Positions 2 through 7,338 of a stretch of 10,000 bases of DNA are shown here, piece after piece. The translations under genes were made by a program, and so were the position numbers. Source of the stretch: Candidatus Hydrogenedens sp. Its GTDB lineage: Bacteria; Hydrogenedentota; Hydrogenedentia; Hydrogenedentales; Hydrogenedentaceae. Position 1 is the stretch's first letter, and every line of letters begins with the position of its first letter. The DNA lies in contig JAIWNQ010000027.1 in assembly GCA_020216745.1 (NCBI GenBank), forward strand, positions 1 through 10,000, in the 5' to 3' direction. The notes below the pieces were generated by a model. The model saw only the letters and a list, made by a program, of their open reading frames with translations, was not told the DNA's origin and searched no databases.

Positions 2-7
2 AGGAGG
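2..7 (+). promoter_or_regulatory. Shine-Dalgarno site of the prepilin-like gene
   Basis: The consensus AGGAGG lies six bases before an in-frame ATA codon at 14-16. The same AGGAGG with the same six-base spacing precedes the ATG of the gene at 7487, so the geometry is that of a working site in this genome. It could be coincidence if the reading frame really begins before the window, because AGG AGG also reads in frame as two arginine codons. Confidence 0.5.
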
Positions 8-13
8 TTTTAT

Positions 14-994
14 ATAAAGAAAAGTAAGAAAGGTTTCACACTAATTGAACTGTTAGTCGTCATTGCTATTATCGGAATTCTTGCGGCTATCTTATTACCT
101 GCGTTAGCGAGGGCACGTGAAGCGGCGAGAAGGTCAAGCTGTCAGAATAACTTGAAGCAGTGGGGATTAGTATTCAAGATGTATTGCAATGAAACGAAAG
201 GTGAACGGTTTCCACGAATTCTCGTAAGGGAAGGTGCTCAACCTATTTACAGAGATTGCGATGTCGCCAACCCGACATACACTACTTTCCAGAGGTCTGT
301 ATTCCTTGCGATGGGTCCTGATTTAACGACTTTGTATCCTGAATATTTAACTGACCCTGCAATAATCTTTTGTCCCTCTGATGCACAAAGTACTATTAAA
401 GATGTTACCAATGATGCAACAGGAGAAAATACAGCAGGCTGGTTATGTACTAATGAGCATTACGGTGCAGCTGCGATAGATGAAAGCTACATATATATTG
501 GCTGGGTTTTGGACCGTGCTAAAACGACAGACAATCCGATGACACTACCCCCAGTTCCTCCATTAATTAATCAGTCTGTAACTGGGCCTGGTCAAGTTGT
601 TGAACTTGCAATGAATACCCTCGTTCCTGTTTTTATGAATCCGTCCCAATGGCCCAATCTTGTTGATAAAGATGTACCTGTAACAGCAGGTAATGGGAAT
701 GGCGGAGGGAATGTGGTATATAGACTTAGAGAAGGTATTGAAAGGTTCTTAATTACGGATATTAATAACCCTGCTGCTTCTGCTCAAGCACAGAGTTCCG
801 TATGGATTATGCTTGACCATGTTTCAACCAAGCCAGAAGGGTTTAATCATATTCCAGGAGGTTCTAATGTGCTTTATATGGATGGGCATGTAGAATTTAT
901 CCGTTATGTGGCAGAAGACCCATTAAACCCGACAGGTGCTGGAACTCCTCCTGTAAATGCAGGTATGGCGGAAGTTATAGGTATGTTTATTTAA
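14..994 (+). CDS. Type IV prepilin-like protein (N-methylation motif, H-X(9-10)-DG family)
   Basis: Secreted pseudopilin-like protein of the kind handled by a type IV pilus or type II secretion machine. The N-terminus reads [21 protein letters not shown]: a short basic leader, a prepilin peptidase site between Gly (32-34) and Phe (35-37), the Glu at mature position 5, and one long hydrophobic helix running into ARAREAARR. Near the C-terminus [17 protein letters not shown] matches the prepilin-associated H-X9-DG signature, here with ten residues between His and Asp. Planctomycetes, Lentisphaerae and Hydrogenedentota carry many such proteins, often as dispersed single genes; the function of most is unknown. 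The start is uncertain. ATA at 14 follows an ideal ribosome binding site and would give a normal seven-residue leader of 326 residues in total, but the frame is open to the window edge, so a standard start upstream is possible. The TTG at 152 is too late because it removes the whole pilin signal. No pilus assembly genes are visible. Confidence 0.88.
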
Positions 995-1190: not shown

Positions 1191-2573
1191 TTATTGGAGT
1201 AATTTTCCTTGATATTCCCCTGTTAGGGTCTTTAAGAACTTTGTAATTTTTTCCTCTTCTGCTTTTGGTATCTGTTTTCCTACCTGATACTTCAGCATGA
1301 TATTCACTACTTTTTGTAGGTCATCGGTAGAACCATCATGAAGATATGGTTGTGTAACTGCAATATTGCGAAGTAATGGCACTTTAAATTTATGTTTATC
1401 TTCTTCGTTTTTCGTTACATTATATCTCCCCAAATCGGCTTCTTTTATTTCTCCACCACGATCTTTGAAATAATCTGCTTTCAAGCCCATCTTTTCATAG
1501 GATTGCCCACCCATAGCTTTGCCTACATGACAGGTGGCACATCTATATTTTTTAAATAGAGCATATCCTTCTTTTTCTTCAGCATTCAGGGCATCTGCTT
1601 TCCCTAATAAAAATTGGTCGAATCGAGAATTGGGAGTTATAAGGGTCTTTTCAAATTCTGCGATGGCGTTTGTAAAGTTGTCTTTATTGTATCCTGATGG
1701 ATAGACTTCAAGGAAAGCCTGTGTGAATTCTGCATCTTGATTTAATTTAGATGTTACCTCTTCCCAATTGGAAGCCATTTCAATTGGATTATTTACAGGA
1801 CCATCTGCCTGTTCTTGTAAATCTTTTGCTCTGCCATCCCAGAATTGAACGAAGTTAAATAGTGCATTATAAACAGTGGGAGCATTAATAGGTCCAATGG
1901 CTCCGCCGACACCTTCTGAAAACTTTTTGCGGTCAACACCACCTGTTGCTAAATCATGGCACCCAGCACAGGCAAGGGTGTTATCTTTAGACAATCTTTT
2001 GTCATGGTATAATTTATTTCCAAGTGCCACTTTCTTTTCATCTACATCTACCTTTTGAGGTAAAGGTTGGACAACTTCTTGTTTTAAGTTTTCAGGAATA
2101 CCTTCTGTGGCATAGTGTTTGGCTCGCGTAGACTTTACCCAGGTTAAAATTAAGTTTTGTTCTTCTTTTGAGAGCATACTATCCCAATGAAGAGCAATGT
2201 ATCGTAATGGAGGCATTTCATTCATTAATGTTGTGTGTTCAATTTTTGCTAATGCTACTTCTGTAGGTGGTTTGTTTTCTCCAGGGAAAAGTTCCTTTAG
2301 CATGTTCATGTAGAATAAGCCCAATTTAATATCTGCTTCTATAATTCCTTTAGCAATAGGGAAGTTTGCATAGAATGGAAGTTTATATTCTTTTGTATGG
2401 CAATTCACACACTTTTTTTCTAATATAGGTAATACTTTTGCAAACGTTGGGTCATCTACTTTTTTGTCTGTTATTGTTGTTCCGACAGGTGGTCCAACAA
2501 TAAGATTTACGATAGGGAATGCTAATGCGACAATGACACCAACGACAATAAGACCAATAATGTACTTCTTCAT
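1191..2573 (-). CDS. Membrane-anchored three-heme cytochrome c peroxidase
   Basis: Predicted to reduce hydrogen peroxide to water on the outer side of the membrane using electrons from the respiratory chain. The 460 residues hold an N-terminal hydrophobic segment (about 4-28) with no clear cleavage site. A heme-binding domain (about 40-155, resembling Pfam Haem_bd) follows, with CVNCH at 55-59 and an MPPLRY block at 120-125 whose Met may ligate that heme. The di-heme peroxidase core has CAGCH at 202-206 (peroxidatic heme), FWDGR at 244-248 with the inter-heme Trp245, NPIEM with the probable catalytic Glu265, CATCH at 345-349 (electron-transfer heme), and Met426 as its likely sixth ligand. The position where the Pseudomonas enzyme has its distal His (before GPxNxPT) appears to be Val222. 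ATG at 2573 has AAGGAGA seven bases upstream. The gene stands alone, divergent from a methyltransferase gene. Classical periplasmic enzymes lack the extra N-terminal heme domain. Confidence 0.92.
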   Translation of the reverse strand: MKKYIIGLIVVGVIVALAFPIVNLIVGPPVGTTITDKKVDDPTFAKVLPILEKKCVNCHTKEYKLPFYANFPIAKGIIEADIKLGLFYMNMLKELFPGENKPPTEVALAKIEHTTLMNEMPPLRYIALHWDSMLSKEEQNLILTWVKSTRAKHYATEGIPENLKQEVVQPLPQKVDVDEKKVALGNKLYHDKRLSKDNTLACAGCHDLATGGVDRKKFSEGVGGAIGPINAPTVYNALFNFVQFWDGRAKDLQEQADGPVNNPIEMASNWEEVTSKLNQDAEFTQAFLEVYPSGYNKDNFTNAIAEFEKTLITPNSRFDQFLLGKADALNAEEKEGYALFKKYRCATCHVGKAMGGQSYEKMGLKADYFKDRGGEIKEADLGRYNVTKNEEDKHKFKVPLLRNIAVTQPYLHDGSTDDLQKVVNIMLKYQVGKQIPKAEEEKITKFLKTLTGEYQGKLLQ

Positions 2574-3679: not shown

Positions 3680-6600
3680 TTAATTTAAAAGTGGAGCGAA
3701 TCCGTCTTCTGTACCTTCTTGTATAATATAGCCTTTACCTGGTGCATTATACAGTTGAATTTGTCGTAATAGTTCAGAGAGGTCAATTTTCCAATCCTGA
3801 ATACGATAATCCGCTGTATGTGGTCTACAATTTCTGTGTTTTCCTTCACCTGGCATAAATCCATCTTCAGAGGTTTCATCACATCCATAACCACCAGAAT
3901 TAAACATCTGTATAACTCGTAACATTTCTGTTAAGGAAATGGCCCAATCTCGATTTGAGTCTGCAGAATGTGCTTGTTCTGGAGCCCAACCTTTTAATAA
4001 CACTGTTTCACAGACAGGTGACCTTAACTCTTCACTATCGGGAGTTCTATAGAGAACCTGTCCACTAAATACAGCAGTTCCATCTGCATCGTTTGGCACT
4101 AATACTGTATAAGCAACTTTTACTGGGAATGGTGGTATATTCATCCATGCGAATTCAAGGGTTCCAGTAGCACCTTGTGATGGAGCAACTGAAGCCCCAC
4201 TTGTTTCGATTATAGATTGTAACTCCCACCCAGTCGGGAGTGTCTCTTGTAATCCCAAAGCAGAAATTCGTAATCTTTGTGGGTTCCTAATTGTCAATAT
4301 TACAGTAACTAACTGTCCAGGCCAATAACGTTTGTTATTTGTAGTTGCACGTTCTAATATTAGTGTTGTTGGCTGATTCTCGCCACCAGGTCCACCAGGT
4401 CCACCAGTCCCATTTTCACCAGTACCTCCTTGCCATGCATTGGTACACTTATCAATGATAGACTGTAATTCATTCATTGTTAGTGTTCCATTTGCATCTA
4501 AGTCTAACAACATAATGGCTTTTGTAAGCCATGTCATATCAATAGGGCTTTGAAGGGCAGTACTTATTAAATTTGTAATATCTTCGATTGAAAGGTCACT
4601 TTCTTGTTGACCAATCTCTCCATATAGTTTCAACAAATATTGAGCTAATCTACATGGGTCCCAAACATCTGGAATATCTACTTCGCCTTCTCCACCTGGG
4701 ACAATGTTACAATCTTCTAATATTTTCTTGACTTCTTCTATGACTACCTTTCCATCAGCATTTAAATCGAATTGTGTAAAGATCTCAGTTAAAATAGAGC
4801 TGTCAATAGGCAACGTAATATTTATACTCACAAGACCTGTTATTTCATCAAGAGTTATTGCACCATCACCGTTCTGGTCAATATATTCGAAATATTTTAA
4901 AACTATTGGTGCAATAATACATGGGTCTCTCGGAATTTCGATTTCACCTTCGATAGGTGGCCAGATTTCACCTTCAATCGGGATTATTTCGTCACAATTC
5001 GCTATAATCTCATTTAATTCATCTTTTGTTATGCTTTCATCTGCATTCAAATCTAATTTCTTAAATATTTCAACAATTAACTCTTGGTTAATAGGTAATG
5101 GATAAATCATAATCACAGGACCTGTTACTTCATCAAGAGTTATTGCACCATCACCATTCTGGTCGATATATTCGAAACTCTGTAATACGATGGGGGCAAT
5201 CAAGCACGGGTCTGTCGGAATATCAATTTCTCCCTCGATAGGCCAGGGTTCACCTTCAATTACTATATTGCATAAACTGTCAATAATGGTCTGTATTTCC
5301 TCACGAGAAATAGCTGAATCCCCATCTAAATCAAATTCTGCAAATAACATATCTACTGTGGCTGGGTCAACAGGAATAGGATAAACAACGGTCAACGTTG
5401 TAATAAGTTCATCTCTTGTTATTTTTCCATCCTTATTTGCATCGAGCATATCAAAATATTCTAACGCGATAGGTCCTAATGCACATAGGTCGAGAGGTAT
5501 TTCACCTTCGAATGATGGTTCACCTTCCCAACCTTCCCAACCTCCATTTAACAGATATAAAACTGTATTTAAATCGTTACAATCAATAAGACCGTTAGCA
5601 TTAAAATCAATAGATGCAAATTGGTCTTCTGTAAGATATTGTGAGACCTCATCGTAATCAATCATTTGATTTCCATTTTTGTCAACCATACTTAAAACAT
5701 TGTTTGGGTCAATACCAACCTGTGGAGCTAATAAAGTTAATTCGAAGACAATCTCTTCTATACTTAATCCGCCATCTTTATTTAAATCAGCAATAGCAAA
5801 AATTTCGTCTAAGTTATCAGTAAGATTAAGAGAGTAACCTGATAAAAATCTGTTTATTATGGTTAGTATTTTTTCAATCTCTTCTTTACTTATTTGCCCA
5901 TTATTGTCTAAATCAACCAATGGGAAAAATATTTCGATTATAGAGCGAATATCTGTCGTTGGTAAAGGACATTCGCCATTATCTCCTCCACCATTATATC
6001 CACATTCTTCTGCCCATGCTTTCAGTTCTTCCATCGTTATTTCACCATTTGAATCTAAATCAAATGCGGAAAATAGCACATCAAAATCAACAATAGGCGG
6101 ATAGATCAAGATGATAGGGAAATTCAACTCATCTTTTGTAATTACACCATCACTATTCTGGTCTAATTCGTCAAAACTACTAATTGCTAAATCAACCCAG
6201 TCGCAGGGGTTTGTTTCTGGTGGGATAACTTCTCCTTCCCATATTTCTCCTTCTATGATAATTTCGCCTTCCCATGTTTCACCTTCTATATCAATGGGTG
6301 GTTCTCCCACATCTTCACAATCAATAACACCATTCATATTTCTATCTAACATTTTGAATTGGTCTGATGAAACATAAGCAGATACTTCCTCATATTGAAT
6401 TAAGGCGTCTCCATTTGTGTCTACTAATGAAAGAATTCCAGCAGGTAAATATACCTGTAGCAATGCTATTATCGGCTGAAATTCTTGACGGTCTACTTTG
6501 CCATCTCTGTTAGTATCAAACATAGTAAAATACTGTTCTGGAACAGGATATAATGCTGACAATTCAGCCAGTGATAAGCCTCCATCTCCATTAGTATCAA

Positions 6601-6736
6601 CGAGAGGCCAGATGATATCTAATATGGCATTAGGGTCATTTGGCAATGGACAGGGTGGGTTTGTGGCTGTTTGAGCCCATGGCGACAACAGTACCATCAT
6701 AAACCCAATCATTGTTAATGTTGTAATCTTGTTCAT
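3680..6736 (-). CDS. Large secreted multi-EF-hand protein with cysteine-bounded modules and duplicated dockerin-like tail
   Basis: A probable extracellular calcium-binding structural or adhesive protein of 1018 residues; exact role unknown. A signal peptide (1-24, MNKITTLTMIGFMMVLLSPW, then AQTA) is followed by seven EF-hand modules. Type A modules (29-143, 256-390) hold four loops each; type B modules (178-245, 416-491, 510-582, 605-677, 694-765) hold two. Of 18 loops, 17 keep a DxDxDG-like pattern, for example DTNGDGGLSLAE at 47. The loop near 709 (GQQESDLSIEDI) is decayed. Linkers are rich in EGE and WEGE. After a Gly-rich linker (769-788) comes a beta-sandwich, DUF11-like segment (about 791-914), then two dockerin-like repeats (922-1018). 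I see no LPXTG, lipobox or C-terminal membrane helix, so it is secreted free or held by its tail. ATG 6736 is chosen over the in-frame ATG at 6772 because of its ribosome binding site and because the signal peptide then starts at Met1. Confidence 0.9.
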   Translation of the reverse strand: MNKITTLTMIGFMMVLLSPWAQTATNPPCPLPNDPNAILDIIWPLVDTNGDGGLSLAELSALYPVPEQYFTMFDTNRDGKVDRQEFQPIIALLQVYLPAGILSLVDTNGDALIQYEEVSAYVSSDQFKMLDRNMNGVIDCEDVGEPPIDIEGETWEGEIIIEGEIWEGEVIPPETNPCDWVDLAISSFDELDQNSDGVITKDELNFPIILIYPPIVDFDVLFSAFDLDSNGEITMEELKAWAEECGYNGGGDNGECPLPTTDIRSIIEIFFPLVDLDNNGQISKEEIEKILTIINRFLSGYSLNLTDNLDEIFAIADLNKDGGLSIEEIVFELTLLAPQVGIDPNNVLSMVDKNGNQMIDYDEVSQYLTEDQFASIDFNANGLIDCNDLNTVLYLLNGGWEGWEGEPSFEGEIPLDLCALGPIALEYFDMLDANKDGKITRDELITTLTVVYPIPVDPATVDMLFAEFDLDGDSAISREEIQTIIDSLCNIVIEGEPWPIEGEIDIPTDPCLIAPIVLQSFEYIDQNGDGAITLDEVTGPVIMIYPLPINQELIVEIFKKLDLNADESITKDELNEIIANCDEIIPIEGEIWPPIEGEIEIPRDPCIIAPIVLKYFEYIDQNGDGAITLDEITGLVSINITLPIDSSILTEIFTQFDLNADGKVVIEEVKKILEDCNIVPGGEGEVDIPDVWDPCRLAQYLLKLYGEIGQQESDLSIEDITNLISTALQSPIDMTWLTKAIMLLDLDANGTLTMNELQSIIDKCTNAWQGGTGENGTGGPGGPGGENQPTTLILERATTNNKRYWPGQLVTVILTIRNPQRLRISALGLQETLPTGWELQSIIETSGASVAPSQGATGTLEFAWMNIPPFPVKVAYTVLVPNDADGTAVFSGQVLYRTPDSEELRSPVCETVLLKGWAPEQAHSADSNRDWAISLTEMLRVIQMFNSGGYGCDETSEDGFMPGEGKHRNCRPHTADYRIQDWKIDLSELLRQIQLYNAPGKGYIIQEGTEDGFAPLLN
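3683..3973 (-). repeat. Tandem pair of dockerin-like units at the C-terminus of the EF-hand protein
   Basis: Two units with a 50-residue period cover residues 922-971 and 972-1018. Unit 1 has HSADSNRDWAISLTEMLRVI and later EDGFMP. Unit 2 has HTADYRIQDWKIDLSELLRQI and later EDGFAP. Shared features are H-[ST]-A-D, D-W-x-I-x-L-[ST]-E, an amphipathic helix ending in [FY]N, a Gly-rich turn and EDGF. Only the first keeps an EF-like loop rich in Asp and Asn. I recall similar tails on other Hydrogenedentota secreted proteins, which suggests a shared surface-sorting or docking role; this is inference. Confidence 0.7.
4835..4892 (-). repeat. 58-bp near-identical direct repeat, copy in module B4
   Basis: Encodes FEYIDQNGDGAITLDEITG, the first EF-hand of module B4. 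It matches 5120-5177 in module B3 at 55 of 58 bases. Two of the three differences are silent and one changes Ile to Val. Confidence 0.9.
5120..5177 (-). repeat. 58-bp near-identical direct repeat, copy in module B3
   Basis: Partner of 4835-4892, at a distance of 285 bases, which equals the length of one module plus its linker (95 codons). It encodes FEYIDQNGDGAITLDEVTG. The match points to a fairly recent in-frame duplication, or recombination, of a whole module. Confidence 0.9.
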
Positions 6737-6837: not shown

Positions 6838-7338
6838 TTATATTTGCGGAGGGGATAAAGAACCGAGATGAAAAGCAAAATATTTTGCTCCTTCAGTGTT
6901 AAGCCCACATACTATTTCATACCCCATTTTTTCTTTTTCCATTAGCACCCTTTTCCAATTATCATTTGAAAGACTTTCCCCACTGTTGTTTTGTGGTGTT
7001 TTCATTTTGATATTTTTGAAATTCGAGTTATCTTTAATAAATCGTTGTGATATTGAGATATATCCTATTTCATTTTTTACTATTCTTTCCTGCTTCTTAC
7101 CCAGATTTTTTATAAGAATTTGCAAATCTTGTATATCAACTTTACCATCACCATTTATATCGGGGATAGATGTCATATTATATGAAACAATCCCTGCAAT
7201 CATCTGTTGAACATCACAAACATCTACCTTCCCATCATTATTTATATCTAAATTGATGTGTTCTGAATGTAAAAACGTTCCCCCAAACAACCCCCCGATG
7301 ATTAAAATAGCAACTATTTTTACTTTAAGTTTAATCAT
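6838..7338 (-). CDS. Small secreted dockerin-like protein
   Basis: A 166-residue exported protein. An N-terminal signal segment (about 1-25, basic MIKLKVK then IVAILIIGGLFGG) is followed by two calcium loops of the dockerin type: DINNDGKVDVCD (31-42) and DINGDGKVDIQD (60-71). Each has ligand positions D/N/D/K/D/D and is followed by a short helix (VQQMIAGI, LQILIKNLG). The spacing and the paired arrangement match dockerin I; in cellulosomes such domains bind cohesins, but no cohesin or glycoside hydrolase is visible here. Residues 85-166 match no family I recognise; they end in EIVCGLNTEGAKYFAFHLGS and then LSPPQI. ATG 7338 has AAAGGAAG (7348-7341) close upstream. The gene lies 101 bases upstream of the large EF-hand gene on the same strand with no terminator between, so the two are probably co-expressed. 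Confidence 0.75.
   Translation of the reverse strand: MIKLKVKIVAILIIGGLFGGTFLHSEHINLDINNDGKVDVCDVQQMIAGIVSYNMTSIPDINGDGKVDIQDLQILIKNLGKKQERIVKNEIGYISISQRFIKDNSNFKNIKMKTPQNNSGESLSNDNWKRVLMEKEKMGYEIVCGLNTEGAKYFAFHLGSLSPPQI

Follow-up and report, generated by a model that had tools for sequence, protein, structure and literature searches.

Paired cysteines as a putative disulfide staple of EF-hand modules in a predicted secreted protein of Candidatus Hydrogenedens

The window analysed here is the whole stretch of 10,000 nucleotides at positions 1 to 10,000 of contig JAIWNQ010000027.1 (Candidatus Hydrogenedens sp., GenBank assembly GCA_020216745.1). On its reverse strand lies a gene for a protein with seven EF-hand modules, here called the EF-string, and every module holds a pair of cysteines. 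Do these pairs form disulfide bonds that tie together the two ends of each calcium-binding unit, as a preliminary description of the sequence had proposed? The evidence in hand consists of the sequence pattern, the all-or-none conservation of the pair in four-EF modules, the coevolution of both module ends, and a high-confidence bead model (AlphaFold2 model of module A, predicted local distance difference test score 92.3, predicted template-modelling score 0.81). Judging from the sequence, the EF-string is probably a secreted and surface-attached protein of EF-hand beads, each closed by one intramodular disulfide.

The EF-string has an N-terminal hydrophobic segment (signal-peptide-like, as judged by eye), the seven EF-hand modules, a beta-sandwich domain, and a C-terminal double-repeat domain, in this order. 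It is strongly acidic (179 D+E versus 49 K+R), and the inter-module linkers are acidic, 'EGE'-rich, and free of cysteine. Reading of the sequence gave 17 intact EF loops at 18 loop positions. The loops are canonical 12-residue loops, and the profile matches place the protein in the EF-hand superfamily (Pfam EF-hand_7, E 9.7e-63; EF-hand_1, E 2.6e-61; PF13499, 208.9 bits against a cut-off of 30; PF00036, 199.2 against 25.4). The homologous contigs are named Candidatus Hydrogenedentota, and the close homologues Candidatus Hydrogenedentes or Hydrogenedens.

A recount of the cysteines, numbered from the ATG at 6736, reproduced exactly the fourteen module positions given before (Table 1), with two cysteines in each of the seven modules. 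Three further cysteines (909, 952, and 970) lie in the C-terminal part. The cysteines had been placed before the first and after the last EF-hand of each module, with none inside. This is correct for modules B and D to G, where the second cysteine lies 8-9 residues past the last loop. However, in modules A and C the second cysteine is itself part of the fourth EF loop and occupies its position 10 (the loops start at residues 131 and 377); apart from these loop-4 cysteines, no cysteine is found inside the modules of the window. Module G retains both cysteines without its first EF loop, as had been described, and that loop is present in three orthologues (L031, L032, and L033). When 14 cysteines were placed at random, 0 of 200,000 trials gave all seven modules one cysteine in the 20-residue stretch preceding the first loop and another close to where the last loop ends. 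Because the modules are homologous repeats with common ancestry, conservation in divergent homologues is the better test.

The architecture of a cysteine, four EF loops (sometimes three recognisable), and a last loop with a cysteine at position 10 was found order-wide. An upstream cysteine lies at least 90 residues before 82 of 83 such module ends (20 open reading frames (ORFs) from 18 genomes, window included). These ends were chosen by their cysteine; the 83rd is truncated by the contig end, and in four of them the upstream cysteine taken by the script is an extra loop cysteine. The 77 module rows of the A1 alignment (29-68% identity to module A) were also picked for having both cysteines, so the invariance of the cysteines in A1 is circular, and it was replaced by searches with the cysteines masked.

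In the Cys-masked search of 146 homologous proteins, both cysteines were present in 196 of the 200 modules scoring at least 80 bits; three were scored as one-sided and one had neither. For the three one-sided modules, the missing cysteine lies just outside the search window (P0063) or the module is truncated at the protein start (P0030 and P0058). The sole module with neither belongs to P0072 and scored 80.2 bits. Between 50 and 80 bits, 20 modules had both cysteines, 58 neither, and 3 were one-sided. The matches below 50 bits (4 both, 54 neither, 15 one-sided; n = 73) are distant EF proteins and were excluded from the argument. This search superseded that of the first 55 proteins (160 of 178 both, 14 neither, 4 one-sided). 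Of 347 aligned unique modules, 109 are gapped at one of the cysteine columns and were left out. Among the other 238, in which both columns are occupied, 228 have both cysteines, 6 have neither, and 4 appear one-sided, with both cysteines readable and shifted by an alignment slip. Cys-masked matches in ORFs of the genome stretches (n = 129) gave 108 both, 12 neither, and 9 one-sided; four of the nine are out of register and run across two-EF modules from the window genus, another is cut off by a contig end, and four are in Cys-poor families (L098 and L099). Homologues that split the pair had been named as the evidence that would count against a staple; in the four-EF modules the pair is all-or-none, and this outcome favours it. 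The pattern might also be a mere inheritance through repeat duplication, uninformative on function, since the counts of homologous repeats are not independent. This explanation is very improbable: in searches blind to cysteine, complete modules hold both cysteines or neither despite variation elsewhere in the module, and module G has kept both although one of its EF loops is lost.

The cysteines might instead pair between modules or molecules, for example C140-C178 and C245-C256 over the linkers, and this would give a cross-linked network with no closed beads. Such linker-closing pairs would be sterically easy, because only 11-38 residues separate the second cysteine of one module from the first cysteine of the next. 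However, they would strand C29 and C764 without partners, and the pair is retained where a module stands alone. The lone four-EF module of a lipoprotein from a different family (L087, an 882-residue ORF; a similar ORF occurs in L088) has both cysteines, and in these proteins they are the only ones apart from the N-terminal cysteines up to the lipobox. In addition, the N-terminal cysteine segment coevolves mainly with the EF3 and EF4 loops of its own module, far above other blocks, against a null of 80 sets in which N-termini were swapped among the modules of one protein. Pairing over the linkers is thus unlikely; intermolecular dimers through the module cysteines are conceivable as well. The same Cys-(EF)-Cys modules also occur among further Cys-rich domains in other EF proteins (L081-L085, from G000:C136 and its genus relatives).

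Other cysteine pairs occur in these proteins beside the putative staple. The C-terminal domain (HxxDxxxDWxISLxELLRxIQ...EDGY.PG) has 20-26 matches per genus genome, and in 99 of its 101 distinct copies no more than 15 residues separate it from the end of the ORF. Both cysteines of its pair are present in 77 copies, neither in 23, and one in 1; five further matches lack the motif. This domain appears to serve in sorting or anchoring, and its own model was not found in Pfam at E <= 0.01 or in NCBIfam at 0.1. In the 228 modules with both cysteines, counted over profile columns and not insert columns, 208 have no other cysteine, 13 have two extra, and 7 have one extra. The two extra cysteines are at EF1 position 9 and EF2 position 7 in nine modules, at columns 70 and 72 in three, and at columns 36 and 58 in one. 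The EF1 position 9 / EF2 position 7 pair (9 both, 1 one) is found in modules with the terminal staple. The reverse pair, EF1 position 7 and EF2 position 9, gave 11 both and 4 one, and all 11 are in modules without the terminal staple. P0035 and P0072-P0074 are EF-strings that lack the terminal staple and carry this reverse pair instead. Positions 7 and 9 of EF1 and EF2 lie opposite one another across the EF-hand beta bridge. Because these cross-strand pairs occupy facing beta-bridge positions, the secreted proteins of the phylum look adapted to disulfides.

Several observations limit the case for the staple or weigh against it. In the two-EF modules, the test by homologues that split the pair is weaker than in the four-EF modules. 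Both cysteines were present in 45 of 45 two-EF modules of 11 genus proteins, with a profile that was itself built on segments delimited by cysteines. Beyond the genus, the counts were 59 both, 501 neither, and 290 one-sided (n = 850), with search windows that were too loose. Among the matches listed, both cysteines were found in two-EF modules of P0034 (6 modules), P0027, and L034, and in many order-wide homologues the final two-EF module ahead of the beta domain has neither. The single extra cysteine in 7 of the 228 modules has no obvious partner, nor has C909 of the window protein; EF2 position 9 alone is occupied in four of the one-extra-Cys modules or their like. The coevolution analysis has a small base (195 modules, effective number of sequences 151), the block rank varied between 1 and 44 of 496 across ten settings, and columns 31-39, 91-99, and 97-105 were also just above the highest of the 80 nulls. 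Finally, DsbA, DsbB, and VKOR had no match in any of the four genus genomes (three at least 90% complete). The same three families and Thioredoxin_4 had no match in any of 23 strong-staple genomes (A1 match at E <= 1e-23; families f1, f3, f9, and f10), in all of which the staple cysteines were read. The end-to-end staple is supported by all-or-none conservation, coevolution, the single-module lipoprotein, and the further cysteine pairs, but not by the presence of canonical catalysts.

Across 68 genomes of the order, VKOR was found in 8, Thioredoxin_4 in 7, DsbA in 7 (6 above the cut-off), and DsbB in 0. VKOR and Thioredoxin_4 lie on one ORF of 391-436 residues, an apparent fusion, in G036, G044, G050, G058, G060, G061, and G067; all seven are in family f5, apart from the staple-bearing lineages. 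In a lineage without disulfide machinery, the cysteines might stay reduced, as structural thiols or as a two-Cys metal site. The missing matches fit this view, and so do the accessible parts of PMC12453122, according to which obligate anaerobes tend to keep cysteine out of exported proteins and an even-Cys bias generally accompanies DsbA and DsbB/VKOR. However, the invariant or nearly invariant A1 columns, in rows chosen by cysteine, contain no histidine and no cysteine beyond the pair. Further all-or-none cysteine pairs exist, some of them cross-strand, and each of the four genus genomes has 5-7 Thioredoxin_2 matches, which could include non-canonical oxidants. Permanently reduced cysteines thus seem distinctly unlikely. 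In Helicobacter pylori, a DsbC/DsbG-like oxidant is in use without classical DsbA/DsbB, as far as the accessible part of PMC4597128 indicates. Considering the missing catalysts together with this precedent and the Thioredoxin_2 matches, a non-canonical oxidant may be at work, or the thiols may remain in reduced form. The missing canonical catalysts are a warning sign or else what is most interesting about the finding. Because the staple-bearing lineages have no recognisable DsbA, DsbB, or VKOR, a tentative proposal, somewhat less probable than its alternatives, is that Hydrogenedentota close secreted domains, EF-hand beads among them, by disulfides from an unrecognised extracytoplasmic thiol-oxidation route. 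The EF-string would be a main client of this route, and the staple would be a covalent counterpart of the dockerin clasp.

With one intramodular disulfide per bead, the EF-string would be a row of independent EF-hand beads strung on acidic 'EGE' linkers. Two-EF beads would be closed by a bond from the beginning of their first helix to the far end of their last one. In four-EF beads, the N-terminal CPLP segment would be bonded to position 10 of loop 4, and the disulfide would take the place of the loop 4 exit helix, because this helix is short or missing. The disulfide might keep the bead folded at low calcium, in the manner of the non-covalent dockerin clasp between head and tail. From the signal peptide, the repeats, the beta-sandwich, and the C-terminal domain, we infer that the protein may be a calcium-loaded component of the cell surface or matrix, attached through its C-terminal domain. 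Should the bonds form, the fold of this EF-hand family would be covalently locked end to end. Calcium binding could then be separable from folding, which would inform the study of extracellular calcium proteins and offer a robust calcium-binding module. The question of how secreted proteins are oxidised in bacteria without recognisable DsbA, DsbB, or VKOR is also made directly testable.

The features of the window are summarized in Table 1. Of 20 EF-string ORFs examined, 7 (window, L031-L035, and L037) are preceded by a dockerin-motif ORF with an SPP or APP tail. It was not seen at L036 or at the other 12 EF-string ORFs, for several of which the available upstream DNA is short. The small dockerin-like protein is a candidate operon partner of the EF-string gene, perhaps together with the cohesin-like beta domain of the EF-string. 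In the three genus relatives, the MauG/di-haem peroxidase-like gene and the EF-string gene are no more than a few kilobases apart.

Table 1. Features of the window, with residues numbered from the ATG at 6736
Feature	Position	Strand	Details
EF-string gene	3680..6736	-	1018 aa from ATG at 6736
EF-string alternative TTG start	6772	-	1030 aa
Module A	6317..6652	-	C29-C140, four EF loops; C140 at position 10 of loop 4
Module B	6002..6205	-	C178-C245, two EF loops
Module C	5579..5971	-	C256-C386, four EF loops; C386 at position 10 of loop 4
Module D	5270..5485	-	C418-C489, two EF loops
Module E	4994..5206	-	C511-C581, two EF loops
Module F	4709..4921	-	C606-C676, two EF loops
Module G	4445..4654	-	C695-C764, single intact EF loop after a degenerate first loop
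Ig-like beta-sandwich domain	3986..4369	-	Fold common to pilin, CLIPPER, integrin, and cohesin domains
C-terminal double-repeat domain	3683..3979	-	Own cysteine pair C952/C970
Small dockerin-like protein	6838..7338	-	Dockerin_1 50.7 bits, cut-off 22.9; directly upstream of EF-string gene
MauG/di-haem peroxidase-like gene	1191-2573	-	84-93% identical in genus
DUF1559 pilin-like protein	2-994	+	H-X9-DG C-terminal motif

A literature search of partial coverage found no described extracellular EF-hand family built as C-(EF-hands)-C beads. The EF-string scored 154.7 bits against XopAW (NF041410; cut-off 120), spread over 7 separate stretches. This score for a type III effector apparently reflects the summed EF repeats and would then be an annotation trap. 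Lanmodulin is a periplasmic multi-EF-hand bacterial protein that has a different EF spacing and is not known to have a Cys staple; the EF-string scored 45 bits with its model (NF053806), far under the cut-off of 135. Calmodulin, calbindin D9k, S100, and troponin C, which are mostly cytosolic, share the EF-pair fold with the first half of the bead. Over the whole bead, calmodulin-like chains gave Foldseek template-modelling scores (query length) of 0.35-0.47, and among the 60 of 513 sequence matches listed no best stretch spans from cysteine column to cysteine column.

The animal protein SPARC/BM-40 has an extracellular EF-hand pair with disulfides, one pair per protein, and its disulfide is located within one EF-hand, the second. 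Unlike SPARC, no module of the window has two cysteines within one EF-hand. The whole-protein score of the EF-string with SPARC_Ca_bdg (PF10591) was 53.6 bits (cut-off 22), but no single stretch passes alone; the best covers positions 52-110 of the 113 in the profile. The window EF-string had no match to Dockerin_1 (PF00404) at E <= 0.01, and PF00404 is among the precomputed domains of several of its homologues. Type I dockerins with an intramolecular clasp (Ruminococcus flavefaciens ScaA; Clostridium thermocellum) are like the EF-string in that a secreted bacterial EF-hand-like pair has its head tied to its tail. In the dockerin, this is achieved by ring stacking of Tyr-5 and Pro-66, according to the accessible part of PMC4728124. 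The dockerin clasp is non-covalent, whereas the tie in the EF-string would be a disulfide, repeated sevenfold and also present on four-EF units.
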